A stretch of DNA of 52,737 nucleotides, taken from the NCBI GenBank assembly GCA_004283055.1, contig SHLP01000012.1, positions 1 through 52,737 on the forward strand, in the 5' to 3' direction. Below the pieces are notes generated by a model that saw only the letters and a program-made list of their open reading frames with translations, was not told the origin of the DNA and ran no database searches. Positions 3 to 16,043 of the stretch are shown here, in pieces (position 1 is the first letter of the stretch; every line of letters begins with the position of its first letter). The position numbers and the translations under genes are program-made. The stretch comes from Deltaproteobacteria bacterium. GTDB taxonomy: Bacteria > Myxococcota_A > Polyangia > Polyangiales > Houyiibacteriaceae.

Positions 3-734
3 CCCACCCTGGCGCAGGCCCAGGACACGGGCACTGAAACTGACACTGACACTGACGCTGACGCTGACACTGACGCTGACGCTGTTACCCCCCCTCCCCC
101 CAAGCTCGCCGTCGTCGTCTCCGGCGACCCCGACGAAACCCTGCGGCAGACCGCCGCCTTCCTCGAAACCGAGGTGAAGCGCTCGGGGCTCCGCGTCCCA
201 ACCGACCCCGCGCTGCGCGCGGCCATGCGCGGGGAGCCTACGATCGTCGACGATGGGCTCGAGGGGCTTCGCGTCCTTCGCCGCGGCCTCGGCTTCGATC
301 CGCGCAAAGACCTGAGCTCCTACAGGCGCATCGGGATCATTGCCGGCGCCGATGCCTTGCTGGTCGTGCATCGCGAAGGCGCGATCGTGTTGGAGGTCTT
401 CGACGTGAGCGCGACGCAGTTCTATGAAGGCGCGCTCGAGTTCGACGACAGCAGCGCCGAGCAGCGACTGAAATTCATCCAAAGCCGCGCAGCGCAAGCG
501 CAGCTACGTTGGTCTGAACCCGTTCCGGCGCCCCCGGAACAGGCTGCTGTAAAAGTGAACGAACCCAAACCGCCGGCGGACGAATCGAGGGCGAAACGCA
601 GGATCAAAAAGGCTTGGCCGTATTTGGTCGCCGGGGTGCTCCTCGCGGGAGGTGTAACCTACCTCATCATAGATCGACGTCGTACTAACGAGCCGGGACC
701 CCCGCTGCTAAGCTTTAGACCCGGTGAAGAGTAG
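3..734 (+). CDS. Secreted, C-terminally membrane-anchored protein of unknown function (5' partial)
   Basis: The reading frame is open from the window edge, so the start lies outside. The visible product is about 243 residues. It begins with what looks like the end of a signal peptide (PTLAQAQ), followed by a Thr-Asp/Ala-Asp dipeptide tract and a proline run. A globular part then starts near KLAVVVSGDP and includes an IGIIAGADALLVV strand. A Pro/Lys-rich linker leads to one C-terminal membrane segment (WPYLVAGVLLAGGVTYLII) followed by Arg residues. That layout suggests a periplasmic domain anchored at its C-terminus. The GTG of the next gene at 724 overlaps its last codons, so the two are probably translationally coupled. 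I do not recognise the family. An internal GTG at 174 is in frame but would discard the export signal, so it is unlikely to be the start. Confidence 0.75.
   Translation, partial: PTLAQAQDTGTETDTDTDADADTDADAVTPPPPKLAVVVSGDPDETLRQTAAFLETEVKRSGLRVPTDPALRAAMRGEPTIVDDGLEGLRVLRRGLGFDPRKDLSSYRRIGIIAGADALLVVHREGAIVLEVFDVSATQFYEGALEFDDSSAEQRLKFIQSRAAQAQLRWSEPVPAPPEQAAVKVNEPKPPADESRAKRRIKKAWPYLVAGVLLAGGVTYLIIDRRRTNEPGPPLLSFRPGEE
33..86 (+). repeat. In-frame 6-bp tandem repeat encoding a TD/AD tract
   Basis: Nine successive hexamers of the type ACTGAC or GCTGAC, the first and last imperfect, encode alternating Thr-Asp and Ala-Asp. The unit is a multiple of three, so copy-number change would lengthen the acidic linker without shifting frame. 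It lies just after the probable signal peptide. Confidence 0.85.
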
Positions 735-1800
735 ACCCCATCTCGCTTCGTTTAGGGCATTGCTTTGCGCGTTCGCCGTCACCGCGGCGTCCGCCGGTGC
801 ATTGGCTCAGCAAGCGCCCGCCCCCTCGCTGCCGTCGCCGCTCGATGGGTACGCAACCGAGCGCGTGGGAGCGGTGACGTGGACCTTCCCGGAGTCCGAG
901 CGAAGTCGGGTGGATGCCCTCATCGATGGCGTCGAGAGCCACTGGGCCGAGCTGGCGGACAACTTCGGTGTACCGATCGACGATCAGCTCATCATCCGCG
1001 TCGCGCGAAATCCTCGCGAGATGCGGGCGATGGCGCCCTACGGCCATCCCCCGCCCGACTACGCGACCGGTGTCGCCTACTCGCAGTGGGGCGTGATCCT
1101 CTTGACGATGTCGGCGCCGGAGACCTGGCAGCCCCCCGATCTCGAGGTGGTCCTCGTCCACGAGCTCTCGCACGTAGCGCTCCATCGGGCGGTGCTCGGC
1201 CACTCGGTGCCCCGCTGGTTCAACGAAGGCGTCGCGATTCACCAATCCGAGGTGCGCTTGCTCCCACGAATGGAGTCGCTGCTGCGGGCGGCCGCCCAGC
1301 GCTCGATGCTCCGGCTCTCCGAGCTCGACGACCGCTTCCCAACTCGTCCGCACGAAGTGAACGTCGCCTATGCCCAGAGCGCGGACGTCGTCGGCTTCCT
1401 GCGCCGCACCGACAATGACGAGCGCCGCTTCCATCGATTGATTCAATCGATGCGCGAGGGCGAGACGTTCGATACCGCGCTCGCAAGCGCCTACGGCTGG
1501 ACGCGCATCGGCCTCGAACGCGAGTGGCGCGAAAGCCTTCGGACGAGGTACCGAATCCTGCCTGCCCTTTTTGCCGGTTCGACGATTTGGGTCGCCGCCG
1601 CGTTCCTCGTCGTGTTCGCGTACCGCAGGCGGCGCCGCTACCACCACGCGAAGCTGCAGCAAATGGCCTATCGCGAAGAGCTCGAAGCGCTGCGCCTTAC
1701 GAGCGAGCCTCCGCCCGCCCCAATCGCCTCAACCGACATGACCGCCGATACAGGCATTCCGATCGTCGAGCACGACGGCGAGTCGCACACCCTTCACTGA
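724..1800 (+). CDS. Peptidase MA-like zinc metalloprotease, exported and membrane-anchored
   Basis: The product is 358 aa. A GTG start is followed by a signal peptide (hydrophobic residues 10-28, ending ALAQ). The gluzincin signature HELSH is at residues 146-150, and the expected downstream glutamate is in WFNEGVA (E168). This is the arrangement of the peptidase MA family, whose two His and Glu bind zinc while the Glu of HExxH activates water. A C-terminal transmembrane segment (about residues 280-302) is followed by a basic, helical cytoplasmic tail. The catalytic domain would therefore face the periplasm. The start overlaps the previous gene by 11 bp. The substrate is unknown; some family members act as chaperone-like rather than proteolytic proteins, but the zinc site here looks intact. 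Confidence 0.85.
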   Translation: MKSRPHLASFRALLCAFAVTAASAGALAQQAPAPSLPSPLDGYATERVGAVTWTFPESERSRVDALIDGVESHWAELADNFGVPIDDQLIIRVARNPREMRAMAPYGHPPPDYATGVAYSQWGVILLTMSAPETWQPPDLEVVLVHELSHVALHRAVLGHSVPRWFNEGVAIHQSEVRLLPRMESLLRAAAQRSMLRLSELDDRFPTRPHEVNVAYAQSADVVGFLRRTDNDERRFHRLIQSMREGETFDTALASAYGWTRIGLEREWRESLRTRYRILPALFAGSTIWVAAAFLVVFAYRRRRRYHHAKLQQMAYREELEALRLTSEPPPAPIASTDMTADTGIPIVEHDGESHTLH

Positions 1801-1880
1801 CCCCGCATAGTCGCCGCTTTGCGCGTGCGACCGGGTCTGGCCCCGTAAAGTCTCCGCTTTGCGCCGACCACGGGGCTCGC
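1801..1880. repeat. Imperfect 40-bp tandem duplication between convergent genes
   Basis: Two adjacent 40-bp units start at 1801 and 1841. Their first 24 bases match with about four mismatches, both ending in CCGCTTTGCGC, and the rest is only loosely similar. The repeat lies just after the metalloprotease stop and before the end of the convergent small gene. No T-run follows, so I do not call it a terminator. Confidence 0.5.
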
Positions 1881-1882
1881 TC

Positions 1883-2026
1883 TCAGGCTTTGGAGGCGGG
1901 AGCCTCTTCCGGGTCGAGCGGGAACTTCGGGGTCGTCCCGAGCTTCTCGAGCTTCTTCTTGCGGTCCTTGCCTTGAGCGGCGACCTTGCGGCGCCGTTTC
2001 GCCTTCGTCTTACCTGTATCCGACAT
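1883..2026 (-). CDS. Small, highly basic 47-aa protein of unknown function
   Basis: An ATG at 2026 opens a 47-residue frame beginning MSDTGKTKAKRRRKVAAQGK. The N-terminal half is very rich in Lys/Arg (TKAKRRRK, KDRKKKLEK). The C-terminal half is acidic and proline-containing (TTPKFPLDPEEAPASKA). An AGGA lies eight bases before the ATG, a plausible ribosome binding site. The gene fills the space between the metalloprotease and the aminotransferase. The basic composition suggests nucleic-acid or ribosome contact, but that is inference from charge alone. A chance frame is possible; the RBS and charge segregation favour a gene. Confidence 0.55.
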   Translation of the reverse strand: MSDTGKTKAKRRRKVAAQGKDRKKKLEKLGTTPKFPLDPEEAPASKA

Positions 2027-2071
2027 TCGATTCGTCCTGGCCGCAGCGTGTACTTCGCCTCGGCCGAGCGG

Positions 2072-2950
2072 TCAAACCCCCGCCCCTGTCGCCTGCGATA
2101 CGGCCCGTAAATAGCCCGCGTGCAGCCGTTTTGTAACTGGACCAGGCCTCCCATCCCCGATCGTTCGACCCTCCGCGGACACCACCGGCATCACCTCCCG
2201 GATGCTGCTCGTGAGGAAGGCTTCATCGGCGCCGTAAAGATCCTCGGGCCGCACTTCGCCCTCGATGACCTCGATGCCCTCGTCTGCGGCCGCGGCGATG
2301 ACCGTCGCCCGGGTGATGCCCACCAGGATTCCCGGCTGTGGCTCGGGGGTCCGCACCTTGCCGCCCGTGACGATGAAGAGGTTGCTCGATGCGCCTTCGA
2401 GGATTTGGCCTTCACGTCCAAGCATGAGTGCCTCCTGCGCGCCCTTTTGCTGGGCCTCGTGGACCGCGAGCAGGTTGGCCAGGTAGTTCGACGCTTTGGC
2501 GCCCGCTGCCCGCACGTCATCGGTTGGCCGGGAAGCCTCGAGCAGCGCGACCGCGATGCCCTGCTCGTAGCGCTCGGCGGGCGGCACCGACACGGGGGCT
2601 GCGATGATCACGCGGAGCGGACTTTGGGCGGTCGTGGGGTCATAGGTGAGCGGGCCGGTGCCTCGCGTCACGATGACCCGCACATACCAGTCCCCCTCGC
2701 CCGCTGCCTCGAGGGTTGCCCGCACCTCGGAACAAAGCGTCTCGATCGACACCGGCATGGGGATCATGATGCGGGCCGCTGAGCGGGCGAGCCGTTCCAA
2801 ATGCTCCCGCTCCGCGAAGGGCACGCCCGCGTAGGTCCGATACACCTCGAAAACGCTGTCCCCATAGAGGAAGCCGCGGTCGAAGACCGATACGCGTGCC
2901 TCGTCGCGATCGAAGACCTCGCCATCGATTGCGACCTTTCCTTTGGCCAT
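2072..2950 (-). CDS. Class IV PLP-dependent aminotransferase (IlvE / PabC / D-amino-acid type)
   Basis: The product is 292 aa, the normal length for fold-type IV aminotransferases. The early motif DRGFLYGDSVFEV (residues 24-36), the lysine in AKASNYLANLLA (K152) that would form the PLP Schiff base, and ILEGASSNLF, whose Glu contacts the pyridine nitrogen, are all present. The LTSSIREVMPV segment near the end is also typical. Motifs do not separate branched-chain aminotransferase, D-amino-acid aminotransferase and aminodeoxychorismate lyase with certainty; the SNYLANLLA context leans toward branched-chain or general amino acids. The ATG follows the giant repeat gene's stop after three bases, with AAAGGG seven bases upstream, so the two are almost certainly cotranscribed. 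Confidence 0.9.
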   Translation of the reverse strand: MAKGKVAIDGEVFDRDEARVSVFDRGFLYGDSVFEVYRTYAGVPFAEREHLERLARSAARIMIPMPVSIETLCSEVRATLEAAGEGDWYVRVIVTRGTGPLTYDPTTAQSPLRVIIAAPVSVPPAERYEQGIAVALLEASRPTDDVRAAGAKASNYLANLLAVHEAQQKGAQEALMLGREGQILEGASSNLFIVTGGKVRTPEPQPGILVGITRATVIAAAADEGIEVIEGEVRPEDLYGADEAFLTSSIREVMPVVSAEGRTIGDGRPGPVTKRLHAGYLRAVSQATGAGV

Positions 2951-2953
2951 GGT

Positions 2954-5900
2954 TCAACCCTTTAGCTCTGCCAACAGCTCCGCAGCCTGCGCGTGGCCTG
3001 AGTCTTCTGCAAGGGCCCGCTCGAGCATCGTAATCGCTTTGCGCGTGTCGTCGGTCTTGGCGGCAATGTCGCCGAGGTAGAAATAGACGTCGGCTTTCTG
3101 AATGCCGGAGTCCGGCTCCAGCTTCTGGAGCAAGAGCGCGCGGAAGCTCTTCTGCGCGCGGTCGAGGTCGCCGGCTGCGTGGGTGAGCTTGCCGAGGTCT
3201 CGAAGAATCGCGACGTTGGTGAGGTCGATCTTGAAGGCCGCGTCGTAGGCGGCGAGCGCACCCTCTGCGTCGCCCATCGCCGCCAGCGCTTGGCCGAGCC
3301 TGTGCTGGTGCGCCGCGAGATCTTTGCTCCGCTGCCGCCCGTAGCTCTCGATGATTTGACGAAGGATGGGCACGGCGTCCTGCTGACGGCCCGCCGCCAT
3401 GTACAGATCGCAAAGCGGCACCAAGGCGGCCCGGTCGGAGCCGTCGAGCTCGACCGCGCGCTCGAGGTAGCTCGCCGCTTCGCCCGGGGCGTCGAGCTTG
3501 TCTCGGTAGACGTCGGAAATTGCCCGCAGCAGCGTCAGCCGGTCGGCGTCCGAGCCCGCGGCTCGAAGCTCCCCGTCCAGGACCTCGACGAGTGCCCCAT
3601 AGTCACCGTCGGTTTCGTAATAGGCCTTGAGTCTCTCGCGCGTATCGGCGTCCTGCGGGAATCGCTCGTGCGCCCCTCGCAGCGCCCGTCCCGCCTGCGC
3701 GATATCGCCGACCTTCTGTTCCCAAACGTCCGCAACTCGATGCGAGAGCTCAATGGCGGCTTCCCCGTCGAGGCGACCGGCGAGCCGTTCGAGCGTGTCG
3801 GCGACCCGGGTCCAGCTCCCTCTGCGTTCGTAGAGCCCGGCGAGCGCGCGGAGGGATTGCTCGTCCGAGCCGAGGTCCGCGTTGATGCGCTCGTAGATCG
3901 TGATCGCAGCTTCCTCGTCGTTGCGCTTGCCGAGGTGCAGGTCCGCGATGCGCGCAAGCAGGCCGCGCTGCACGTCGCTCGATGCATGGCCGACTCTCGA
4001 GAGCAGTAGCGCGATGAGCTCATCCCATGCACCGGTCGCCTGATACAGTCGGTCGAGCTCGGCGTTCGCCGTTTCGTGGCTCGGGTCGGCCAGCAAGACC
4101 TGCTGGAATATGTCGATCGCGGCGGCCTGGTCCGTGAACGCTTGCTCGTAGAGCTTCGCGAGCCGAAGCTGCACGGCCATCCGATCCTCGTCACCCGCAG
4201 AGCTGACCCGGCGTTCGAGCAAGCTCCGAAGCGCCTCGAGCCGATCGTTGTCGCGATAGAGCGATTCGAGCGCATCCATCGTGCCCACGTCATTCTCATC
4301 GATCTCGAAAGCGACCTCGTAGGCGCGAATGGCGGCCCGCGGATCGTCGAGTAGGTCCCGGTACACCTGCCCGGTTGCACGCGCCACCTCGGCACGTTCG
4401 TTGCCCGCGGTGAGCTCCATTTGCCGCTCGAGCAGCCCAACGGCCTCGTTCCATCGCGATTGATCGCGTCGAATCGTGACCAGGGCCCGGAGGGCGTCGA
4501 TGTCCTCGGGCTCGATGGAGATCAGCTCTTGATAGCAATCCGCGGCGAGCTCCGGCTCGGAGAGCTCGGCGCACGCCAGCTCCGCCGCTTCGCGCAGCAG
4601 GACAATGCGCCGATCGCTGCCCGGATCGACCTCGGCCCAGGCGCGAAGCGCGTTCACCAAGTCCCTCGTCCGCCCCTGCGATCGAATTAAGTCGACGCGT
4701 CGAGCGTGTGCTTCGAGCGGCTCCGGGTCGAGCCCGAGCGCCGCGGTGAGCTCGCGCTCGGCCGAGCGGGGGTCGGACAGGCGGTCCAGGTACCAGCCGG
4801 CCGATCGCAGCCGCAGCTGGTAGATCTCCCGGCGATCGAGGTCTCCGTGCTCCCCAATCTCCTCGACCAGACCATCGAGCGCCTCCCAGTTTTCAGCTTC
4901 CTCGGCGAGGCGCTCGAGCGAATCGATGAGGGACAGGTCGCGAGGGTCGGTTCGCACCGCGTCGCGCAGGGCCTTCAAGGCCTGCTCGGGACGCCCGATG
5001 TCGTTTTCCCAAATCGCGGCGGCTTCGGTGAGGAGCGCGACGCGATCTGCGTCGGTCTCCGCAAGCTCGACGCGCTCTTCGTAGAGCCGAACCACCTCTT
5101 CCAAGTCGCCGGCTCCCCGGTAGTGCGCCTCGAGCAGGTCGAGCGCGCTTGCAGCGACCTGCGGCTTGGCGGCCAGGCGTCGCACCGCTGCCAGCGTGTC
5201 TTCGCGCCCGGGGTCCTGCTCCATCGCCTTCTCGTATGCACCCAACGCACCCTCGTAGTCGCCTAACTGTTCGGCGCGAAGGCGCCCCTGCCTGAGCAGG
5301 AGCGTCGGCCGGTCCGCGCTCTGTAAGTCCAATCGGCGCGAGATGACCTCGTGCACGCGGTCCCATTGCTGAGTCTGCTGAAGAAGCCGGTCGAGGGTCT
5401 CGAGGGTCGCCGAATCGTCACCCAGCAAGGAAAGCGCCCGCTCCTGCGCGTCGATCGCTCTGCTCAAATCCCCGAGCTCTTCTTCGCAGATCCGCGCCAC
5501 CCGTCCATAGAGGGCTGCGCCCCGTCCTGTATCCAAGCTAGCGCTCGCCTCCGCGAACAAGACCTCTACCAGGTCCGACCAACGTTCCAGCCCGGCAGCC
5601 AGGCTCTCGGCCCGATCGAGAATCTCCTCGTCTTCGGGTCGCTCTCCGATCGACTGCAGGAGGGCGTCGAGCGCAGAGCTCGGGTCCTTGCGCCCATGCT
5701 CGTGTACCTCCGCCAAGGCGACCAGCTGCTCCGCTTTGTCCTGCGGGTCTGTCATGGCATCGGCCCGCAGCCGAAGCAGCGTGGCCAAGTCGTTCCAGCG
5801 TTCCTGCGCGCGAAGGTAAGGCTCGAGCACCGAAGCTGCGTCTTCGCGGTAGTCCGCGAGCTTGGTGATCCGAAGCAGCGCTTGGACCGAGGGCTCATGC

Positions 5901-8900
5901 CCCGGGTCGATCCGCAGAATCTGGCCGTACACTGCGATCGCGCTCAGCTCGTCGTCGAGCTCGCGCTCCATGATGTTGCCGAGCTGATGGGTGAGCTCGA
6001 CGCGCTCGGCTTCGTGCGCGGCCGTATCGGTCCGACGCTGAAGCACCTCGACCAGCTCGGGCCACTGCCCCTGCCGCTCGTACAGCCGGCTCAGGCCCTG
6101 CAAGGCGCCGCGATGATCGGGTTCGGCCTCGGCCACCGCCCTCAGCGCGTCGCAGGCCGCATCGGGCCGGCCGAGCTGTGCCTCGAAGAGCTCCGCCAGT
6201 CGCATGCCCACTTCGACTCGAACCTCGGGCTGCTCTTCGACCTGCATCCGCTGTTCGAGCACGTCGGCCAGCCGCTCCGAATCGTTGGCCGATGCGAAGA
6301 GCCGGTCGAGCGCTTCGTAGGCGACTCCGTCGTCGGGCTTCTCATCGGCGGCGCGTTGGTAGTATTCGACTGCGCGCTCGGGGCTCGACAGCTGCTCCTC
6401 CCAGAGTCCGCCGAGCCGGCACAGAAGCTCCGCACGGGGATCCGGCTCCTGAGCACGTTCGAGCTTCTGCTCGTAAACCCATGAAAGTCCTTCCCAATCG
6501 CCGACCATGACTTGAAGACCTTCCAAGTCGTCGAGGGTTTGGTCCGCCTCGGGATCGGCCTCGAGAAGCCGCCGATAGGTCCCTATCGAAGCGCGGGGAT
6601 CCCCGAGCTCCCGGTCCTGGGTCTCCGCGACACTTCTCAGAAACGACCCTTGAAGCGAGGGGTCCTCCGCTGCGACGGCCGCCTGTTCGCAGGTTTCGAT
6701 GTAGGCCTCCCAGCGCTCGAGCGCCTCGGCTAGTCGGTCCACCTCGCTGCGCGTCGCCTCGTCGGCGGGCTCGGCGACCAGCGCCTTGCCCCAGGCATCG
6801 AACGCTTTGCCAGCGTCGAGCCCCGGCCCCTCGTACAGGCGGCCAACCTCGCGCCAGGTTTCGGCCTGCTCGAAGCGCTCATCGAGCTGTCGTGCCTTGG
6901 CCTCGAGGAGACCCACCAGAGCCTGCCAGTCGCCGCTCTGCCGATGAATCGGTTCGAGAATCTGAACGGCACGAGGCCCGTGCTCCGCGTCCTCGATGAA
7001 TCGCGAGACCGCCTCGATGGCAGGGGCGTAGTCCGGTCGGTCGACCAGGACATCCTCGTAGATGTCGAGCGCCCCCGCCCGGTTGTCGAGCTTCGTCTCG
7101 GTGAGAGCGCCCAATCGCTGCCGGAGCTCGAGCGCGAGTCGGGGGTCCCCAGCGTTTCCGATCTGGAGCTCGATGTGGGCCGCGAGCTCGTCCCATTCGG
7201 CGGTGCGCTCGAGGAGAGCGTCCAGTTGGGTCACCGCCTCGTCGTTGGTCGGATCGAGCTCGAGAATGCGGCGGTAGGTCAGGACGCCGTCTTGCGGTGT
7301 GTCGAGCGCGTCGACCTCCGTTCGCGCGATTTCGTGCAGGATGGCGACCCGCTCTTCGTCGCTCTCTGCGAAACTCTCCCGCTCGCGGTCGAGGTCTAGG
7401 AGCGGTTCCCATCGGCCGCTTCGGGCATAGACCGAAGCAAGGGCCTGGCCGGCCTCCTTGTTGCTCGGATCATAGGTGAGCGCCCGCTGGTAGAAGTAGC
7501 CTGCACGGTTGAGCTCCTCGAGGCGTTGGTCGTAGAGCCTTGCAGTCGTCAGCGCGATCGCGGCGGTGTCGCCGTCGTCCACCTCGACCGCGCGAAGCGT
7601 CGCGTCGAGAATTGCCGCCAGTCGATCCCATCGGCCGAGCGAACGCGCCAGCCGAGTGAGAGTCTCCAGGCTGTGCGGGTCGTGCGGGTCTTCGGCAAAC
7701 AGCCGGCCGTAGGTCTCGAGCGCGCCGTCGAGGTCTTCGAGGTGCGACTCCTGGACGTCACCGAGGTGACGCAAGAGCTCGAGCCGCTGGCTCGGGTCGA
7801 CCTCGGCGTCGAGACGAACTTCGAGAATCTCGGTGACCTTGGCCCAGTCCATCCTTCGAAGGTAAAGAGGCTCGAGCATCTCCGCGGCGGCGCCACGGTG
7901 CTCGGACTGCTCGACCAGCGCTTCGAGGGCGCGGACCGTCGGTTCATGGTCCGGGTTCTGACTCAAGGCCTCGCGGAACTGGTCCAACGCGCGCAACGGC
8001 TCCCCGAGCCACTTGAGGCAGAGCTCACCAAGCTCGTAGCGCACCGCGGCTGGATCCCCGATTCGCTGGTCGATCTCCCGCTCGTAGAGCGTCGCCAAAT
8101 CGTCCCAGCGCTGCGTTCGACGGTAGAGGCGTTCGAGCCCTTCGTACGCCAAGGGGTGATCGCTTTCGCCGAGCGCTCGGTCGAGCGCCTCGATCGCCGA
8201 CTCGGGATCATCGAGCTCGCTTTGGTACAGATGTGCCTGGCGCACGAGGAGCGCCGCCCGCTCCTCGGGGTCGTCGCAGAGCTCGCCCTTGCGCCGCAGG
8301 AGCTCGACCAGCTCGCGGGTCGCGCCTGCCTCCTCCACCAGGGTCAGGAGCGCATCGAGCGCCGCCTCATGGTCCGGCTGCTCGTCGAGGACGCTCTGGT
8401 ACTGGGTCCGCGCGAAGTCGTCGTTGGAGAGACGTTCGCGGGCAATGCTGGCCGCCCGCATGCGCACCTGCGTCCGCAGGTCGGCGTCGAGCAGCTCGGG
8501 GGCGATGCGTCCGAGCGTAGCGATCAGCTCCGCCGTTCCCCCGGTCGCATCGGCGAGCCGCTCGTAGTCCCCTAGCACTCGCTCGAGATCATCGAGGTCC
8601 ACCCCTTCACGAAGGGCGCGCCCCGTGAGCTCGAATGCGGCGTCGAGGTCTTCGCTTTGGACTTCGGAGATCTCCGCAGCACTCAGCAGAGCACGAACCC
8701 GTTCGCCGGGGTCGTCCCCCGCCGCCACGATCTCGAGCATTCGAACCTGATCGTCGGGTCGACCGTCGTTCGCATACTGCTCGAGCAATCGGTTGGCGGC
8801 AGCCACCCGCAGGTAGGCATCCGCACCGGCCGCCAGCTCTTCGAGCGCGGCCACCGTCGGCGCATGCCCCGGAACGGCATCAAGAAGATCTCGGTAGAGC

Positions 8901-11900
8901 TCGAAGGCCCGCTCACCCTCGCCGGTCTTATTGCGCATGAGCTCGGCAGCCTCGAATCGGAAGCCCGTGCGTCGTTCCGGATCGTCCGCGTCTACGGCCC
9001 GCATTTCGGTGATCTCCAGGAGCTCCGGCCAGCGTTCGGTCTGCCGGTACAGCCGCGTGAGGGCCGCCAAGCTTGGTTCGTCGGAGCCGAAGCGGGAAAT
9101 CAGATCGCGATGCGCCGAAATCGCGTTCTCGACGCTGCCGAGCCGCTCTTCGTGGACCTCGGCGACACGCCTGGCCAGGCTGAGCTGCTCCTGTTCCTCG
9201 TCGCAGAGCTCGGCGCGGCGCTCGAGCACCTCGACCAAGGGCTCCCAGCGGTTCTGCGACGCGTAGAGCCGCTCGAGGGCCGCAAGCGCATCGACCTGCG
9301 TCGGATCGTTTTCCAGACGCTCTTGGTGGAGCTCGATCGCAGCGTCCGCGTCGTGCAACGTCGTCTCGAACAGATCTGCCAGCATCGGATACAGCTCGTC
9401 GCGACGTGCCTCATCCTCTTCAAATTGAAGCTGACGACGAAGATCGCGTGCGAGCGCGGCGTCATCGCCGGACTCGGCGTGAAGGCGCTCGAGAGCGCGG
9501 GAGGCCTTGAGAACGATCTCCGGGTTGTCCCGCTCGGCCCGAATCAGCTGCTGATAGGTTTTCTCCGCTTCCACAGGCTCGGGCTCCGACACGTCCCAGA
9601 GCTCGGCCAGCTCGACAAGAATCTCCGTCTTGACGAAGTCGTCGCCGACCGTGGCAAGGCCCCGTTCGAGGAGCTCCGCGCGCTGACGATGACGTCCGAG
9701 CTTGGAGGCGAGCCGCGCCAGATCCGAACGGGCAACGCCATCCGCCGCATCCTCGCGAACGGCGCGGGCGTAGGCGTCGAACGCGAGCTCGTCATCTCGG
9801 AGCTTGGTTTCGCTCAGCTCGCCGATGCGCACCAGATGCGCCGCCCGAGAGCTTGGGTCGCTGAGGTCCTCCAGCTGCACCTCCAGGACCTTCGCGAGCT
9901 CCCCCCACGCGCCCTGTGATTCGAAGATAGGCTGCAGAATCGAGGCGACGCGCTGCCGCTCATCGCGATTGCCCATCAGCCGCTCGAGCGCCTCCTGGGC
10001 ACGCAGATGCGTCGGGCTCGACGCCAGCACGAGCTCGAAGTGGTCCACGGCGTCGACGACGCGGCCGAGCCGGTTCTCGTAGATCGTGCCGAGCTCGTAG
10101 GCGAGGTCAACCGCCTCCTGTCCGCTCGCCTCGTCGAGGTCCCTCTCGAGCAGCTCGGCGAGCTCCGGCCAACGTTGGAGGCGGGCGTAAAGCCTTTGCA
10201 GGGCCCTGCGTGACGGCGTGTGAGTCGGGTCGAGCTCGAGCGCCTGCTCGTAGCTCGAGATCGCGTGCTTGGGCTCGTCCAGGATCTCCTCGAAGAGGAA
10301 GCAGAGCTGGAGAAGCAAGTCGAGCTTGGCGCCCGCGTCGGTCGTCGCTTCGATGCGTCCCTGGTAGAGCGCGCGGAGCTGGTCCCATTCCTCGTGCTTC
10401 GTGTAAACCTGCTTCAAGGCCGCAAACGCCGCTGCGTCGCCGGGCTCGAGCTCGAGGATGCGTGCGTGGAAGCGCGACGCCGCCTCGGGGGTGCCCAGGG
10501 CTACGTCGAAGAGCTCGGCTGCGCGCCGGCAAAGCGTCAGCTCGACCTCGCCTTCAGCGTCGCCCCCATCGAGGACCAGCACCAGGGCCCTCGAGAGAGC
10601 CTCCTGTTGATTCGATGCCTCGGCGACTCCGGTCAAACGGTCCAGCAGGCCCACATCCTGCGGATTGTCGAGGAAGACAGATTCGAGAGCCTCGTAGGCG
10701 CCTGTCGCGTCGTCCAGCTCCGAGGAGGACAGATCGGCCAGACGCAGCTTGAGCGTGCGTCGTTCGTCGGCATCTTTGGTATTTTCGAGTCGCGTGCGAA
10801 GCAGCTCCGCGAGCTTGGTGAAGTGGCCGCGTTTGGCGTACGCCGGCTCGAGAAGATCGATCGCGTCGAGCCCCGAGGCCCCGCCTTGCGCCGAGAGCGC
10901 TTCGAGGCCGGCAATGGCGACTTCGTTTCGACCATCCAACGCCAAAGCATTGCGGTAACACTCGAGGGCACCAGCGGAGTCCTCGAGATAGAGCCGGCGG
11001 AGGTCCGCGAGCTGCAGATAAACGGCAAGCCGGTCTTCGTCTCCCACCTTCGACTGAAGACGTCGAGCAAGCGCCGCGTCCAAGCGATCCCACTGCTTCA
11101 GTTGTTGCGACAGGCGTTCGACCGCTCGCAGCGCATCGACGTCGTGCGGGTTCTTCGACAAGATCTTCCAATGCCGCTCTGCGGCGGCCGGAAGGTCCCC
11201 GAGCTGCTCCTCTTCGACCTGAGCGACTTCATTCAGGAGCACCCACTCCTCCGATGGGTCGGCCGCGCTCTCTAGGCGGCGCTCGTAGAGGGCGCGCAAG
11301 TCGGCGAAGCGACGCTCGGCGCGGTACAAGCGATCGAGGACGGCGATCGCCTCGGCGTCGTTGGGGACGACCTCCAGGATACCTTCGAGCTGCCGAATCG
11401 ATTCCTCGGACTCGCCGAGGCGTTCCCCCGCAATTGAAGCGATGCGTCGCTGAAGATCCAGGCGCTCTTCTTCCGAAACGGTGGCGGTTGCCAATCGAGC
11501 GCGAAACAAGGCCACGAGGTCCGCGTAGGCCCCCGACGCCTCGGCCGACTCCTCGAGGCCAGCGACGATCGCCGGATCGGCAGGGGAAAGAAGGTACGCT
11601 CGCGTCGCCCAACCGAGTGAAGCTTCTGGGTCACGGATTCGGTTCAAGTAAACGCTGCGCAGCGAGATGAGTCGTTGGATCTGGACGTCGAGGTCCTCGT
11701 CTTTGTCGGACCCTGCGACGACCACCTCGAGGGTCTTGGCGTACTCCGGCCATTTGTGATCCTTTTCGTAGATCGGAAGGAGCCCCTCGGCGGCTTCGAT
11801 GTTCGTAGCGTCGGTAGCGAGCGCGCGCTCGTAGTAGCGAGCAGCGCGATGTGGGTCTCCGGCCCGGTCGGCGTAGATCTCCGCGGCGCGCAGGCTCAGC

Positions 11901-14137
11901 TTCACGCTCGACTCCGAGTCTTCGGCTTGCTCTGCGGCATGCCCGAGGAGCTCGGCGAAACCGGCCCAGTCTTCGCCCTCCGCATAGAGCTGCTCCAAGG
12001 ACTCCCAATCGTTCAGACGTAGATAGGCGTCCTTGAGCATGCGCCGGACACGGCTGTTGTCCGGGTCGAGTCCGAGCAAGCGTACCCAAACCTCGACGGC
12101 CTCGGCCGGACGTTCGAGCCGTTCCATGTACAGGGCTCCGAGCCGATGAAGGTGTTCGACCCGTTTGGCGTCGCTCGCGGCAGCGTCTGCACGGCTTTTC
12201 AAAACCTCAGCGAGCGTGTCCCAATCCTTCTCGCGCTCGGAAAGCTTCTCGAGCGCATCGAGCGCAGGCGCGGGCTCGGGGCTTTCGCTGAGGATTTCCT
12301 TCCACAGCGTGATCGCGTCGGCGTTTTTGTGAAGTCGCTCCGTGCAGAGCTGCGCCATCTCCACCTTCTTGTCGAGGCGCGTCGAAGGATCGTCGGCAAG
12401 ATCGGCTTCGCGGCCCAGGATCGCCACCAACGCTTCCCAGTTGCGCTTCTTCGTGTAGATGTCCTTGAGCTGCGCGAGTGCCTCCTGGTGGTCGGGCTGC
12501 AGCCGCAAAACACGTTCGAGCGGTTGCGTTGCCTGCTTCAGGTTTCCGAAGCGCTCGAGCCAAAGGCCGGCGATGCGGACGTAGAGCGCGACTTTGTCGT
12601 CGGTGTCCGAGGCAACCTCGGCTTGGCGATCGAGAATCTGGATGAGCTCGTTCCATCGGCCGGCACCCTCGTAGAGCTCCGACAGAGCGCTCAAAGCCTC
12701 CGAATCGAAGGGAGAGAGAACGAGAATCTCCCCGTAGACTTGAATGAGCATCGAATCGAGGTGGAGCGCGTCGCGGTAGATCGGGATCAAGTCGCGTAGC
12801 AGGCGCAGCTTTTCTTCCTTGGAGTCGGGCGAGAGCGCATCGACCTCGCCTCGAATCGACTCGGAAAGGGCGTTCCATTTGCCGCTGAGCTGGTAGAGCT
12901 GCTGAAGCGCAGCGCGCGCATCGACGTCGCCCGGAGCCAGCCGCTCTACGAGCTTCCACGCCTCCAGCGCGCGCTCGGGGCGGTCCTCTGTCTGCGCTCG
13001 GTGACCGAGCTCTCGGGCCAAGGCGAGCTTCTGCTTCGGGTCCGTCGTGGTGCGCAGCGCGTCGCCCAGGATGGTCAGGAAGCGTCCATTCAGATCCTCG
13101 TCTCCGATTCGACCACGGTAGAAGTCGAGCATCCCTGGATGAGCCGCATCGATCTTTCGAAGCCGTGTAAAAAAGGGCTCTGCGGATTCCGGGTCGTCGC
13201 GAAAGCGCCAATGGACCATCGCCAGCTGGAGGAGCATGCCCTTCTCCGCCTCGAGCGTCTGGCGTGAACGGAGCGCGCTCTCGTACATCTCTGCGAGCTC
13301 GTCCCAAGCTTCGAGCTCGGTGTAGTGCTCGACCAGCGCACCGAGCGCCTCCGAGTCGGTGGGCGAGAGCTTCAAAACCTTTCGGTATGCGTCGGCGGCG
13401 CGCTCCGAATCCTCCAGTGGACGCCGCAGCACGCGGGCGGCCTGCAACCAGGCGCTGGCCTTCTCTTCGCGGGTCCGAGCCGCCGTGGCAGCGCGAACGA
13501 AGACGGATACGACATCGTCCCATCGGCCGCGCGCCCTGAGACTCAGCGCATACTGCCGGGCGGTGCACATGTGCGACGGATCGGCGGCCAACGCCTCGTC
13601 GAAAATCGCGTCGGCCTCGTCGGCGATCGGATCGCCGCCGTACTGCCACATCAGGGACGCGGCACGGGTGAGCAGCGAAGTTCTGAGACGCGGGTCGACC
13701 GCTTCGCGAGCCTCCTCGATGAAGCGTCGCGCGATCTCGGCCCACTTCTCCTCGACTTGTTGGATCTGATCGACCGCCTGAGCGACCTCGGGGTCATCGG
13801 ACGCGAGACCGCCCAGCTGCTCGTAGGCGACCAGGGCGCCCCGGTCGTCCATAAGCTCGTCGCGGCGGACCCGGCCGAGCTCTTTCACGAGCACCTTCTG
13901 AAAGTCCGGATCATCGGCGACCAGCTCGGTCTCGAGCTCCATCAGCCAGGAGGCCGCCAGGAAATCACCGCGGCGCTCGTGTCCGCCACGGGCGGCCTCG
14001 AGCAATCGAAGAGGGTCTTGGTCGTCGTTCGCGGGGTTCGGACTCTTGAGAAACTCGCGCAGCCCGTCGACGAGCTCGATGTCGTACGGGTTCTCCAGCA
14101 GGAGGCCCAAGTACTCCGTCAGCGTCAGCTCAGACAT
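2954..14137 (-). CDS. Giant TPR-like helical repeat protein (about 3727 aa)
   Basis: One uninterrupted frame of about 3727 codons. I chose the ATG at 14137 (MSELTLTEYLGLLLENPYD) because AGGGG lies five bases upstream. ATGs at 14191 and 14281 would add 18 or 48 residues that look non-native. Nearly the whole protein consists of a degenerate repeat with a period near 73 residues. Each unit reads roughly AL..L..LY...RW.EL...LE.R, then LA.LYE..L.D...A...Y..AL..DP, which equals two TPR/HAT-like hairpins. This gives about 50 units. The final 120 residues resemble canonical 34-residue TPRs (GDAEGALAAYDAAFKID, DTRKAITMLERAL). There is no signal peptide, membrane segment or catalytic domain, so it is probably a cytoplasmic scaffold. 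Composition is strongly Glu/Asp/Leu/Ala/Arg. The aminotransferase gene follows three bases after its stop. Partners are unknown. Confidence 0.93.
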   Translation of the reverse strand: MSELTLTEYLGLLLENPYDIELVDGLREFLKSPNPANDDQDPLRLLEAARGGHERRGDFLAASWLMELETELVADDPDFQKVLVKELGRVRRDELMDDRGALVAYEQLGGLASDDPEVAQAVDQIQQVEEKWAEIARRFIEEAREAVDPRLRTSLLTRAASLMWQYGGDPIADEADAIFDEALAADPSHMCTARQYALSLRARGRWDDVVSVFVRAATAARTREEKASAWLQAARVLRRPLEDSERAADAYRKVLKLSPTDSEALGALVEHYTELEAWDELAEMYESALRSRQTLEAEKGMLLQLAMVHWRFRDDPESAEPFFTRLRKIDAAHPGMLDFYRGRIGDEDLNGRFLTILGDALRTTTDPKQKLALARELGHRAQTEDRPERALEAWKLVERLAPGDVDARAALQQLYQLSGKWNALSESIRGEVDALSPDSKEEKLRLLRDLIPIYRDALHLDSMLIQVYGEILVLSPFDSEALSALSELYEGAGRWNELIQILDRQAEVASDTDDKVALYVRIAGLWLERFGNLKQATQPLERVLRLQPDHQEALAQLKDIYTKKRNWEALVAILGREADLADDPSTRLDKKVEMAQLCTERLHKNADAITLWKEILSESPEPAPALDALEKLSEREKDWDTLAEVLKSRADAAASDAKRVEHLHRLGALYMERLERPAEAVEVWVRLLGLDPDNSRVRRMLKDAYLRLNDWESLEQLYAEGEDWAGFAELLGHAAEQAEDSESSVKLSLRAAEIYADRAGDPHRAARYYERALATDATNIEAAEGLLPIYEKDHKWPEYAKTLEVVVAGSDKDEDLDVQIQRLISLRSVYLNRIRDPEASLGWATRAYLLSPADPAIVAGLEESAEASGAYADLVALFRARLATATVSEEERLDLQRRIASIAGERLGESEESIRQLEGILEVVPNDAEAIAVLDRLYRAERRFADLRALYERRLESAADPSEEWVLLNEVAQVEEEQLGDLPAAAERHWKILSKNPHDVDALRAVERLSQQLKQWDRLDAALARRLQSKVGDEDRLAVYLQLADLRRLYLEDSAGALECYRNALALDGRNEVAIAGLEALSAQGGASGLDAIDLLEPAYAKRGHFTKLAELLRTRLENTKDADERRTLKLRLADLSSSELDDATGAYEALESVFLDNPQDVGLLDRLTGVAEASNQQEALSRALVLVLDGGDAEGEVELTLCRRAAELFDVALGTPEAASRFHARILELEPGDAAAFAALKQVYTKHEEWDQLRALYQGRIEATTDAGAKLDLLLQLCFLFEEILDEPKHAISSYEQALELDPTHTPSRRALQRLYARLQRWPELAELLERDLDEASGQEAVDLAYELGTIYENRLGRVVDAVDHFELVLASSPTHLRAQEALERLMGNRDERQRVASILQPIFESQGAWGELAKVLEVQLEDLSDPSSRAAHLVRIGELSETKLRDDELAFDAYARAVREDAADGVARSDLARLASKLGRHRQRAELLERGLATVGDDFVKTEILVELAELWDVSEPEPVEAEKTYQQLIRAERDNPEIVLKASRALERLHAESGDDAALARDLRRQLQFEEDEARRDELYPMLADLFETTLHDADAAIELHQERLENDPTQVDALAALERLYASQNRWEPLVEVLERRAELCDEEQEQLSLARRVAEVHEERLGSVENAISAHRDLISRFGSDEPSLAALTRLYRQTERWPELLEITEMRAVDADDPERRTGFRFEAAELMRNKTGEGERAFELYRDLLDAVPGHAPTVAALEELAAGADAYLRVAAANRLLEQYANDGRPDDQVRMLEIVAAGDDPGERVRALLSAAEISEVQSEDLDAAFELTGRALREGVDLDDLERVLGDYERLADATGGTAELIATLGRIAPELLDADLRTQVRMRAASIARERLSNDDFARTQYQSVLDEQPDHEAALDALLTLVEEAGATRELVELLRRKGELCDDPEERAALLVRQAHLYQSELDDPESAIEALDRALGESDHPLAYEGLERLYRRTQRWDDLATLYEREIDQRIGDPAAVRYELGELCLKWLGEPLRALDQFREALSQNPDHEPTVRALEALVEQSEHRGAAAEMLEPLYLRRMDWAKVTEILEVRLDAEVDPSQRLELLRHLGDVQESHLEDLDGALETYGRLFAEDPHDPHSLETLTRLARSLGRWDRLAAILDATLRAVEVDDGDTAAIALTTARLYDQRLEELNRAGYFYQRALTYDPSNKEAGQALASVYARSGRWEPLLDLDRERESFAESDEERVAILHEIARTEVDALDTPQDGVLTYRRILELDPTNDEAVTQLDALLERTAEWDELAAHIELQIGNAGDPRLALELRQRLGALTETKLDNRAGALDIYEDVLVDRPDYAPAIEAVSRFIEDAEHGPRAVQILEPIHRQSGDWQALVGLLEAKARQLDERFEQAETWREVGRLYEGPGLDAGKAFDAWGKALVAEPADEATRSEVDRLAEALERWEAYIETCEQAAVAAEDPSLQGSFLRSVAETQDRELGDPRASIGTYRRLLEADPEADQTLDDLEGLQVMVGDWEGLSWVYEQKLERAQEPDPRAELLCRLGGLWEEQLSSPERAVEYYQRAADEKPDDGVAYEALDRLFASANDSERLADVLEQRMQVEEQPEVRVEVGMRLAELFEAQLGRPDAACDALRAVAEAEPDHRGALQGLSRLYERQGQWPELVEVLQRRTDTAAHEAERVELTHQLGNIMERELDDELSAIAVYGQILRIDPGHEPSVQALLRITKLADYREDAASVLEPYLRAQERWNDLATLLRLRADAMTDPQDKAEQLVALAEVHEHGRKDPSSALDALLQSIGERPEDEEILDRAESLAAGLERWSDLVEVLFAEASASLDTGRGAALYGRVARICEEELGDLSRAIDAQERALSLLGDDSATLETLDRLLQQTQQWDRVHEVISRRLDLQSADRPTLLLRQGRLRAEQLGDYEGALGAYEKAMEQDPGREDTLAAVRRLAAKPQVAASALDLLEAHYRGAGDLEEVVRLYEERVELAETDADRVALLTEAAAIWENDIGRPEQALKALRDAVRTDPRDLSLIDSLERLAEEAENWEALDGLVEEIGEHGDLDRREIYQLRLRSAGWYLDRLSDPRSAERELTAALGLDPEPLEAHARRVDLIRSQGRTRDLVNALRAWAEVDPGSDRRIVLLREAAELACAELSEPELAADCYQELISIEPEDIDALRALVTIRRDQSRWNEAVGLLERQMELTAGNERAEVARATGQVYRDLLDDPRAAIRAYEVAFEIDENDVGTMDALESLYRDNDRLEALRSLLERRVSSAGDEDRMAVQLRLAKLYEQAFTDQAAAIDIFQQVLLADPSHETANAELDRLYQATGAWDELIALLLSRVGHASSDVQRGLLARIADLHLGKRNDEEAAITIYERINADLGSDEQSLRALAGLYERRGSWTRVADTLERLAGRLDGEAAIELSHRVADVWEQKVGDIAQAGRALRGAHERFPQDADTRERLKAYYETDGDYGALVEVLDGELRAAGSDADRLTLLRAISDVYRDKLDAPGEAASYLERAVELDGSDRAALVPLCDLYMAAGRQQDAVPILRQIIESYGRQRSKDLAAHQHRLGQALAAMGDAEGALAAYDAAFKIDLTNVAILRDLGKLTHAAGDLDRAQKSFRALLLQKLEPDSGIQKADVYFYLGDIAAKTDDTRKAITMLERALAEDSGHAQAAELLAELKG

Positions 14138-14298
14138 CCGCACCCCTGCGAGCCGTTTCGGAAGAGTTTTCGCACCCTTCGGTGATCTCATGAAGCCCCC
14201 AAAAGCAAAAGGATCCTGCGACCTAAGGTCCCCACGGCGCAGGCCTCTCCAATGGTAGCGGCGCGACGATTGGATGGGCAAGCTCAGAGATGCAAGAA

Positions 14299-14331
14299 AG
14301 CCCTCGGAATGTGGAAGTTCGTGAGAGGGCT
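14299..14331 (-). terminator. Possible hairpin after the b561-like gene
   Basis: A 7-bp perfect stem (AGCCCTC at 14299-14305 pairing with GAGGGCT at 14325-14331) encloses a 19-base loop. It lies immediately after the stop of the minus-strand b561-like gene. There is no U-tract and the loop is long, so it is a weak terminator candidate. Confidence 0.25.
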
Positions 14332-14332
14332 C

Positions 14333-15052
14333 TCAGAAGACCATCAGCGCGCCCTGGGCGGTCAACGAGCCCCAGGTGACGAAGCCCACGGTCAAGTGAG
14401 CGGTGGCGATCGCACGAAGTGTTTTGTAGTTATTCGCTCTATCCAGCCCAAACCATTCAGAGTTTGCCGTAACGAGCCCGAGCGCGATTTGAGCGATGAA
14501 GCCGGCAAAGGTCACCCAGCGCAGCGCCTTGTGGGCGCGAAGCCTCTTCGCGAACTTGCTGTCGCCCTCGCTCACCCCGAGCGGGTCGGGCATCGCGAAC
14601 GAAAGCCCGAAGGTCGTGAAGAACGCGGCCCCAGCCAGCACCGATAGTGTCAGGTGACCGGTGGGTGTGCCGCTACACTGGTTTTGAGTCGGCCACGCGT
14701 TCCCGGTCACGCAGGGGTTGGTCGACTGGCTCTGGTACCACCCGTATTGGTTGTAATACTGGACGAAGCCCGAGGCGACGGTGAGCGTGGTGAGCGCCCA
14801 CGTGGTGATTCCGAACCACTTGTGGATCTTTTTGATCTTATTCCGCCTACGAACGAGGTCAGCGGTGGTCGGCTCGTTCGGCTCTTCGAGGTCGGTGGAG
14901 ATCTGAACCGCCAGGACCACGGCCGGCTCGAGCGCGGCGGACGGGGCTTCGAGCACCGAAGTATCGACGTGCAAGGACAGTCCAAACAGCGGAGTCGCGA
15001 GCATCAAGGCGGTCAGAGTGGCCATGCGGGCCGGAGTATCCACCAAAACCAT
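14333..15052 (-). CDS. Four-TM membrane protein with cytochrome b561-like histidine pattern
   Basis: From the ATG at 15052 the product is 239 aa; a second ATG at 15025 is also possible, and neither has a clear ribosome binding site. The open frame extends further upstream, but that stretch runs antisense into the HMG-CoA lyase and is not protein-like. A hydrophobic N-terminus (MATLTALMLATPLFG) may be a signal peptide. Four membrane segments follow, at about 80-98, 132-152, 177-195 and 215-238. Four histidines lie at the segment ends (H77 in IHKWF, H133 in GHLTL, H174 in AHKALRW, H219 in AHLTVGF), the pattern expected for two-haem b561-type cytochromes. Two cysteines (114 and 126) in the first external loop could pair. 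The haem role is inferred from spacing only. Confidence 0.7.
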   Translation of the reverse strand: MVLVDTPARMATLTALMLATPLFGLSLHVDTSVLEAPSAALEPAVVLAVQISTDLEEPNEPTTADLVRRRNKIKKIHKWFGITTWALTTLTVASGFVQYYNQYGWYQSQSTNPCVTGNAWPTQNQCSGTPTGHLTLSVLAGAAFFTTFGLSFAMPDPLGVSEGDSKFAKRLRAHKALRWVTFAGFIAQIALGLVTANSEWFGLDRANNYKTLRAIATAHLTVGFVTWGSLTAQGALMVF

Positions 15053-15122
15053 CTTCAGGGCTAGGTATCTACGGGACCTTCGACGGCTTTTCACGAGGCC
15101 CGAGGCGCTGTAGAGGAGAGAT

Positions 15123-16043
15123 ATGGCGTCTTCTGCGAAGCTCCCGAAACGCGTCTCGGTATACGAGGTATCCCCGAGGGACGGACTGCAAAACGAGAGC
15201 GCCCAGGTGGCAACCCACGCGAAAGTCAGGCTCATCGAGGCTCTCGTCGATGCCGGTATCAGCAGGATCGAGGTCGGTAGCTTCGTGGCGCCGAAGTGGG
15301 TTCCGCAAATGGTCGATGCCGATGAGGTCTGCAGGATGATCGGGCGTCGGCCCGGCGTCACCTACGCCGGCCTATGTCCCAACGCCCGGGGGCTCGATCG
15401 CGCCCTTGCGGCGAAGGTCGACGAAATCGCCGTCTTCGTGAGCGCAAGCGAGACCCACAACCGTAAGAACGTCAACAAGACCATCGGGCAAACGCTGAAA
15501 GCATTCGAGCCCGTCATCGGGCCCGCCGTCGACGCGGGGCTCAAAGTCCGCGCGTACGTCTCCACGATGTGGGGCTGCCCGTACGAAGGCGACGTCGACC
15601 CAAAGCGCGGCCTCGAGCTGGCCCAGCACTTGCTCGGTGAGGGCTGCTATCAGGTATCGCTTGGCGACACGATCGGAGTGGGCACACCGACCCAAACCGA
15701 GAAGATTCTCGATCTCTTTGCGACGGAGGTGCCGGTCGAGCAGATCGCCCTGCATCTGCACGACACGCGAGGCACCGCCCTCGCCAACGTCTTGGTGGGC
15801 TTGCAGGCAGGCATCACCGCTTTCGATGCGTCGGTGGCCGGGCTTGGCGGCTGCCCGTACGCACCGGGGGCTGCGGGCAACCTCGCCACCGAAGATCTGG
15901 TCTACACCCTCGACGGGATGGGCATCGAAACCGGAATCGACCTCGAGAAGCTCTGGCAGGCCGGCCAGGTCGCCGAGGCCATCGTCGGCCGCGAGCTGCC
16001 GGGAAAAGTTCACCGCGCCGGGGTCCGCTCGCTCGGCAAGTAA
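15123..16043 (+). CDS. mvaB: Hydroxymethylglutaryl-CoA lyase
   Basis: The product is 306 aa. It cleaves HMG-CoA to acetyl-CoA and acetoacetate in leucine breakdown. The start of the TIM barrel reads VYEVSPRDGLQNE, carrying the Arg-Asp pair that binds the divalent metal and substrate. HLHDTRGTALAN gives the metal-binding histidines, and VAGLGGCPYAPGA contains the signature catalytic cysteine. GNLATEDLVYTLDGMGI is also family-typical. Length matches bacterial HMG-CoA lyases. GAGGAG a few bases before the ATG is a good ribosome binding site. The next gene starts nine bases after its stop, so this is the first gene of a three-gene run with an aminopeptidase and a P450. No other leucine-degradation gene is in the window. 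Confidence 0.95.
   Translation: MASSAKLPKRVSVYEVSPRDGLQNESAQVATHAKVRLIEALVDAGISRIEVGSFVAPKWVPQMVDADEVCRMIGRRPGVTYAGLCPNARGLDRALAAKVDEIAVFVSASETHNRKNVNKTIGQTLKAFEPVIGPAVDAGLKVRAYVSTMWGCPYEGDVDPKRGLELAQHLLGEGCYQVSLGDTIGVGTPTQTEKILDLFATEVPVEQIALHLHDTRGTALANVLVGLQAGITAFDASVAGLGGCPYAPGAAGNLATEDLVYTLDGMGIETGIDLEKLWQAGQVAEAIVGRELPGKVHRAGVRSLGK

Follow-up and report, generated by a model that had tools for sequence, protein, structure and literature searches.

A giant TPR solenoid protein conserved in Myxococcota and its putative ancient kinship with the gliding protein GltI

Introduction

What could an 11-kb bacterial gene do whose product is almost entirely a repeated helical array, and is such a gene under selection? 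The question is raised by a stretch of 52,737 nucleotides (contig SHLP01000012.1), here called the window, which encodes a giant TPR protein, here protein A. A protein of this kind is known from Myxococcus xanthus: GltI is a 4132-residue TPR protein with no predicted signal peptide or transmembrane segment, encoded in the gliding cluster MXAN_4870-4862 (PMC3169522). We describe A together with a second giant of the same genome, protein B.

Results

Protein A is an array of 49 double TPR units

The open reading frames of the window place gene A on the minus strand, from an ATG at 14137 to a stop at 2954, giving a product of 3727 residues with a computed mass of 418 kDa and pI of 4.6. A sequence-only reading had described a frame open from end to end; this holds for the minus strand, whereas the plus strand of 2954–14137 contains many stops. 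A longer alternative frame starts at a TTG at 14281 (3775 residues). The ATG is preferred because the proteins of relatives L002, L003 and L006 are exactly 3727 residues long and can be aligned with A from residue 1.

2954..14137, minus strand: coding sequence of giant TPR protein A, ATG at 14137, dN/dS 0.11–0.13
2984..13999, minus strand: array of 49 TPR-TPR units, residues 47–3718, period 72 (unit profile, autocorrelation)

The self-similarity of A is maximal at a lag of 72 residues (z = 19.5 against 30 shuffles) and also high at lags of 216, 144 and 288. An iterated unit profile, with the consensus EALERLYEASGRWDELAELLERRLEAAEDPEERAELLLRLAELYEERLGDPEAAIEAYERALELDPDD, recovered 49 non-overlapping copies, each made of two TPR hairpins, or about 98 hairpins in total. 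The array spans residues 53–3715 by match bounds and about 47–3718 by projected unit ends. Successive units start 71–77 residues apart, save at eight junctions of 85–91 residues, and the normal junctions between these long ones follow the pattern 8|4|3|4|3|3|4|2|9. A conserved Trp occupies unit position 13 in 31 of the 49 units.

All Pfam matches of A are to TPR or TT21 ARM models, with TPR_7 (9.5e-35) and TPR_19 (2.9e-31) among several TPR models; no HAT model appears among the matches to E 0.01, nor does any non-TPR domain. The highest 19-residue hydropathy is 1.29, and no membrane segment was found. The sequence-only reading had claimed about 50 copies of a 73-residue repeat, each with two TPR/HAT-like hairpins and a conserved Trp, in a very large all-helical solenoid lacking catalytic or membrane domains. 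The repeat, the Trp, the TPR hairpins and the domain content are borne out; the period is corrected to 72 and the HAT assignment falls.

Two conserved elements lie upstream of A.

14252..14281, minus strand: probable promoter of A, TTGCCC, 18 nt, TACCAT (upstream alignment, read by eye)
14181..14218, minus strand: conserved leader box CAGGATCCTTTTGCTTTTGGGGG..TTCATGAGATCACC (upstream alignment; single copy in the genome)

Conservation is our basis for proposing the promoter; the scan for consensus promoters and terminators listed nothing in 14100–15200. A similar promoter pair occurs at the same place in members of the genus and in L019, L022, L023, L024 and L026. The leader box, conserved at the DNA level within the genus and weakly beyond, continues into CACC-GAAG-GGTG, a small inverted repeat; it is a candidate promoter, operator or 5' UTR element. 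No Rfam family matched the window at the gathering threshold.

Models of A show an unbroken solenoid with extra helices

Two segments of A were modelled with AlphaFold2. Residues 1–810 (mean pLDDT 90.2) and 1280–2420 (89.8) were both predicted as unbroken helical hairpins with alternating helices, in agreement with the solenoid proposed earlier. The pTM values of 0.53 and 0.39 are low, which is normal for solenoids of this length and flexibility, and they leave the global curvature of A unfixed. At each of the four long junctions inside the second model a single extra helix of 8–13 residues is predicted, giving a five-helix unit.

9977..10006, minus strand: extra helix before unit 19, residues 1378–1387 (model residues 99–108)
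8831..8863, minus strand: extra helix before unit 24, residues 1759–1769 (model residues 480–490)
7907..7945, minus strand: extra helix before unit 28, residues 2065–2077 (model residues 786–798)
7004..7027, minus strand: extra helix before unit 32, residues 2371–2378 (model residues 1092–1099)

The nearest solved folds found by Foldseek in the PDB were Ctr9, Ski3, IFT-A subunits, Naa15 and OGT, which might suggest that A, like Ctr9, Ski3 and Naa15, is an adaptor of the transcription, RNA or translation apparatus. TM-scores, however, were mostly below 0.3 and identities 11–16%, the values of generic alpha-solenoid matches that would not identify a function, and we consider such a role unlikely. 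The eukaryotic Ctr9, Ski3, IFT-A subunits and Naa15 resemble A as long TPR-type solenoids but are several times shorter, and no specific homology links them to it. The top PDB sequence matches were designed consensus TPR (CTPR) superhelices (9qhb, 9qhc, 7obi, 8bu0), which share the repeat type; they are engineered from consensus repeats, whereas A alternates two hairpin types per 72-residue unit and carries the extra helices.

TPR superhelices usually contain 7–8 TPRs per turn, so that A would form about 12 turns, that is, tens of nanometres. Because the length of A is constant and the extra helices lie 6–10 hairpins apart, one may imagine a mechanical element of fixed, selected length, a ruler or spring linking distant sites of the cell, in which the extra helices would set one register per turn. 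This reading too appears improbable to us.

The adjacent aminotransferase is a neighbour of A in part of one order

The closest candidate partner begins just behind the stop codon of A.

2072..2950, minus strand: class IV aminotransferase (branched-chain/D-amino-acid type), 3 nt past the A stop; neighbour kept in part of one order only
14336–15025, minus strand: small membrane protein whose histidines are conserved, adjoining A on its upstream side in families f1 and f5; cytochrome b561 match weak (E 6e-4, below cut-off)

The aminotransferase is nearest to branched-chain enzymes (PDB; NCBIfam subfamily scores, all under cut-off) and is probably cotranscribed with A. It lies downstream of A at six of six f1 loci, two of two f5 loci and two of three f4 loci (f numbers are family labels), and directly after A or within two genes of it in several f2 genomes. 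In G164 (f2) the two genes are convergent, and in G266 and G038 (f32) the aminotransferase is divergent and upstream. Beside A it was not found in the other classes sampled. Most f32 and f41 loci have a phosphatidylserine decarboxylase-like gene (named from sequence) downstream of A, and at f32 loci L079, L080, L097 and L075 this gene takes the place of the aminotransferase immediately behind A; HemW-like, GltX-like and other genes are further neighbours outside the aminotransferase lineages. In f1 and f5 the upstream side of A also has an HMG-CoA-lyase-like gene besides the small membrane protein. At the loci examined, none of the conserved neighbours of A belongs to a gliding, polarity or envelope machine.

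The aminotransferase had been named as the one obvious cotranscribed partner. Close spacing and probable cotranscription stand, but the enzyme does not always follow A in Myxococcota: since it does so in much of one order and not elsewhere, it is a neighbour and not an obligate partner. A metabolic complex in which A scaffolds or regulates this enzyme would fit the 3-nt spacing, the downstream place kept in f1, f5, f4 and part of f2, and the two f32 genomes with another orientation. Against it, other classes have an A of full length, with the junction pattern retained, beside unrelated neighbours, and a 418-kDa partner is disproportionate to a 32-kDa enzyme. We regard a metabolic complex as quite improbable.

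A and B, the giant of a Glt-type cluster, are ancient paralogues

The genome that contains the window (G000) encodes a second giant, B, of 3350 residues (C164:8313-18365, composed of L043:8313-11600 and L044:1-6765). Homologues of GltG, CglF and GltE adjoin B, as the corresponding gliding genes adjoin GltI in Myxococcus. Their scores (GltG 394.5 bits, cut-off 650; CglF 63, cut-off 90; GltE 113, cut-off 225) are under the NCBIfam curated cut-offs, so they are homologues and not proven equivalents. Markers of the GltG/GltE/CglF type accompany B-type giants in G183, G150, G112, G042 and G252, and G008 and G151 have GltG matches no more than a few kb away from B. Tgl, used as a marker in looking for M. 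xanthus, did not reach its model's cut-off in any of 14 genomes; the GltJ model matched nowhere, not even in the controls, and is uninformative. The last 330 or so residues of B form a domain without a Pfam match of its own, which is missing from A; used as a query, this C-terminus matches B-type and not A-type giants. A third TPR giant of the same genome, C194 (L045:8977-14046), has 1689 residues in 19 units and no long junctions; by eye, its C-terminal part resembles the end of B.

In the best profile alignment, A residues 481–3668 pair with B residues 23–3056 at 25% identity over about 3000 columns. This register scores 3774 and the next 3429, a modest lead, which is normal for repetitive sequences.

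12698..14137, minus strand: N-terminal extension of A, residues 1–480, absent from B (best profile alignment)

In trees built from 29 proteins of type A and 14 of type B, the two types separate with support of 0.995 for the head region and 1.0 for both the full length and the middle. Both clades contain members of the same class, of f22 and of f32, and A and B coexist in the same genomes. The repetition of the same lineages in two fully supported clades argues for an ancient duplication, and we infer that an already giant ancestor was duplicated before the sampled lineages split. B would then be the counterpart of GltI, and A an ancient sister of GltI.

In size class, TPR content and lack of a membrane segment A resembles GltI/AgmK (MXAN_4863), and it is collinear with the positional counterpart of GltI, B. 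It differs, however, with B as the stand-in for GltI, in occupying another locus without glt genes, in its 480-residue N-terminal extension, in its 49 units and junction pattern, and in lacking the C-terminal non-TPR domain. In its own genome and the others examined the glt-like cluster contains B and not A, and A falls outside the clade of glt-cluster giants while occurring in the same genomes. That A itself is the local GltI orthologue is thus largely refuted and, in our judgement, very unlikely.

A is widespread and its units are individually conserved

Searches for A were made within Myxococcota. Its first 300 residues match 215 of 284 genomes drawn from the phylum at E 1e-5 or better, a count that includes TPR paralogues. 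With its last 1000 residues as query, matches at 1e-40 were obtained in 22 of the 32 genomes selected, some of them through B-type giants; in many of the 22 nearly the whole query is covered and open frames measure about 3570–4100 residues. No match to this query was found in f18, f19, f20, f21, f25, f26, f28 and f34 (one genome each). G135 and G042 (L118) have a B-type giant and no A was found in them; as G135 belongs to the genus of the window, its missing A reflects an assembly gap or a recent loss.

Thirty orthologues, representing several Myxococcota families and classes, align over 3672–3727 of the 3727 residues (at least 98.5%), with identities of 27–88%. The dN/dS of A is 0.106 against L003, 0.124 against L002 and 0.133 against L006. 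In a windowed best-match test close relatives show a constant offset over the full length, and this signal fades by degrees as the relationship becomes more distant. Unit k best matches unit k for 44 of 49 units in G173 and for 16 of 49 in G151 (chance about 1), with orthologous-unit mean identities of 43.5% and 27.3%, against about 17% for non-matching units and for units within A. The units are therefore old and individually conserved, not freshly copied. Many orthologues (G173, G047, G058, G108 and G265, for example) keep the junction pattern exactly or almost exactly, and others keep it in part; in the most distant orthologues some units are missed or split by the unit profile. Repeat number and the sites of the eight longer junctions are thus mostly conserved.

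Conservation peaks in units 4–10 and again in units 48–49, both candidate docking regions.

11798..13342, minus strand: most conserved stretch, units 4–10, residues 266–780, per-unit conservation 0.50–0.60

The second half of units 4–10 is conserved in B too, at 32% identity.

These data show that A is a real, constrained gene: the low dN/dS and the length conserved elsewhere rule out a frame artefact. Slippage can lengthen long tandem arrays, but the low identity of the units, the dN/dS and the unit number and order kept in distant families refute neutral expansion and leave an unselected array or an assembly artefact practically no credence.

Discussion

The TPR fold and the lack of any other domain lead us to see A as a scaffold. 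Our preferred reading, held with moderate confidence, is that A is a cytosolic, non-enzymatic, multivalent TPR scaffold, GltI-like and an ancient duplicate of B. One continuous solenoid of about 98 TPR hairpins, broken by longer junctions at eight places, would present many different docking sites along a single chain. A would then work on the cytosolic face of an envelope or polarity assembly, in the manner proposed for GltI, and perhaps serves an envelope-associated assembly. This part of the scaffold reading is drawn by analogy. GltG homologues are also present in genomes without A, so not every Glt-like machine needs A, and co-occurrence does not settle a GltI-like role. The lack of gliding, polarity or envelope-machine genes among the conserved neighbours of A, and of the C-terminal domain of B, likewise speaks against the preferred reading. 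It had been held that function is not predictable from the repeat. Function is indeed only inferred here, but it is less unpredictable than supposed because paralogue B, in its Glt-type gliding cluster, provides a comparison class.

Other TPR hubs of myxobacteria and other predatory bacteria may be compared with A by fold. In Bdellovibrio, the 353-residue TPR hub Bd2492 binds the Ras-like GTPase MglA, and MXAN_5766 is its 1031-residue Myxococcus counterpart (PMC3983030); passages of PMC12288465 and PMC7668184 link the M. xanthus TPR protein SgmX to MglA. Bd2492 and MXAN_5766 are far shorter than A and are compared by TPR fold alone. The binding of MglA by Bd2492 makes MglA-type modules worth testing for A, and no more.

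We found no description of paralogue A in the searchable literature, and it may be undescribed so far. A is a second giant TPR protein widely kept in Myxococcota, a parallel to a known component of gliding, and its repeat number and junction sites are conserved where repeat arrays usually drift. The division of labour between two sister scaffolds of 350–450 kDa, and solenoid length as a selected property, can now be tested.
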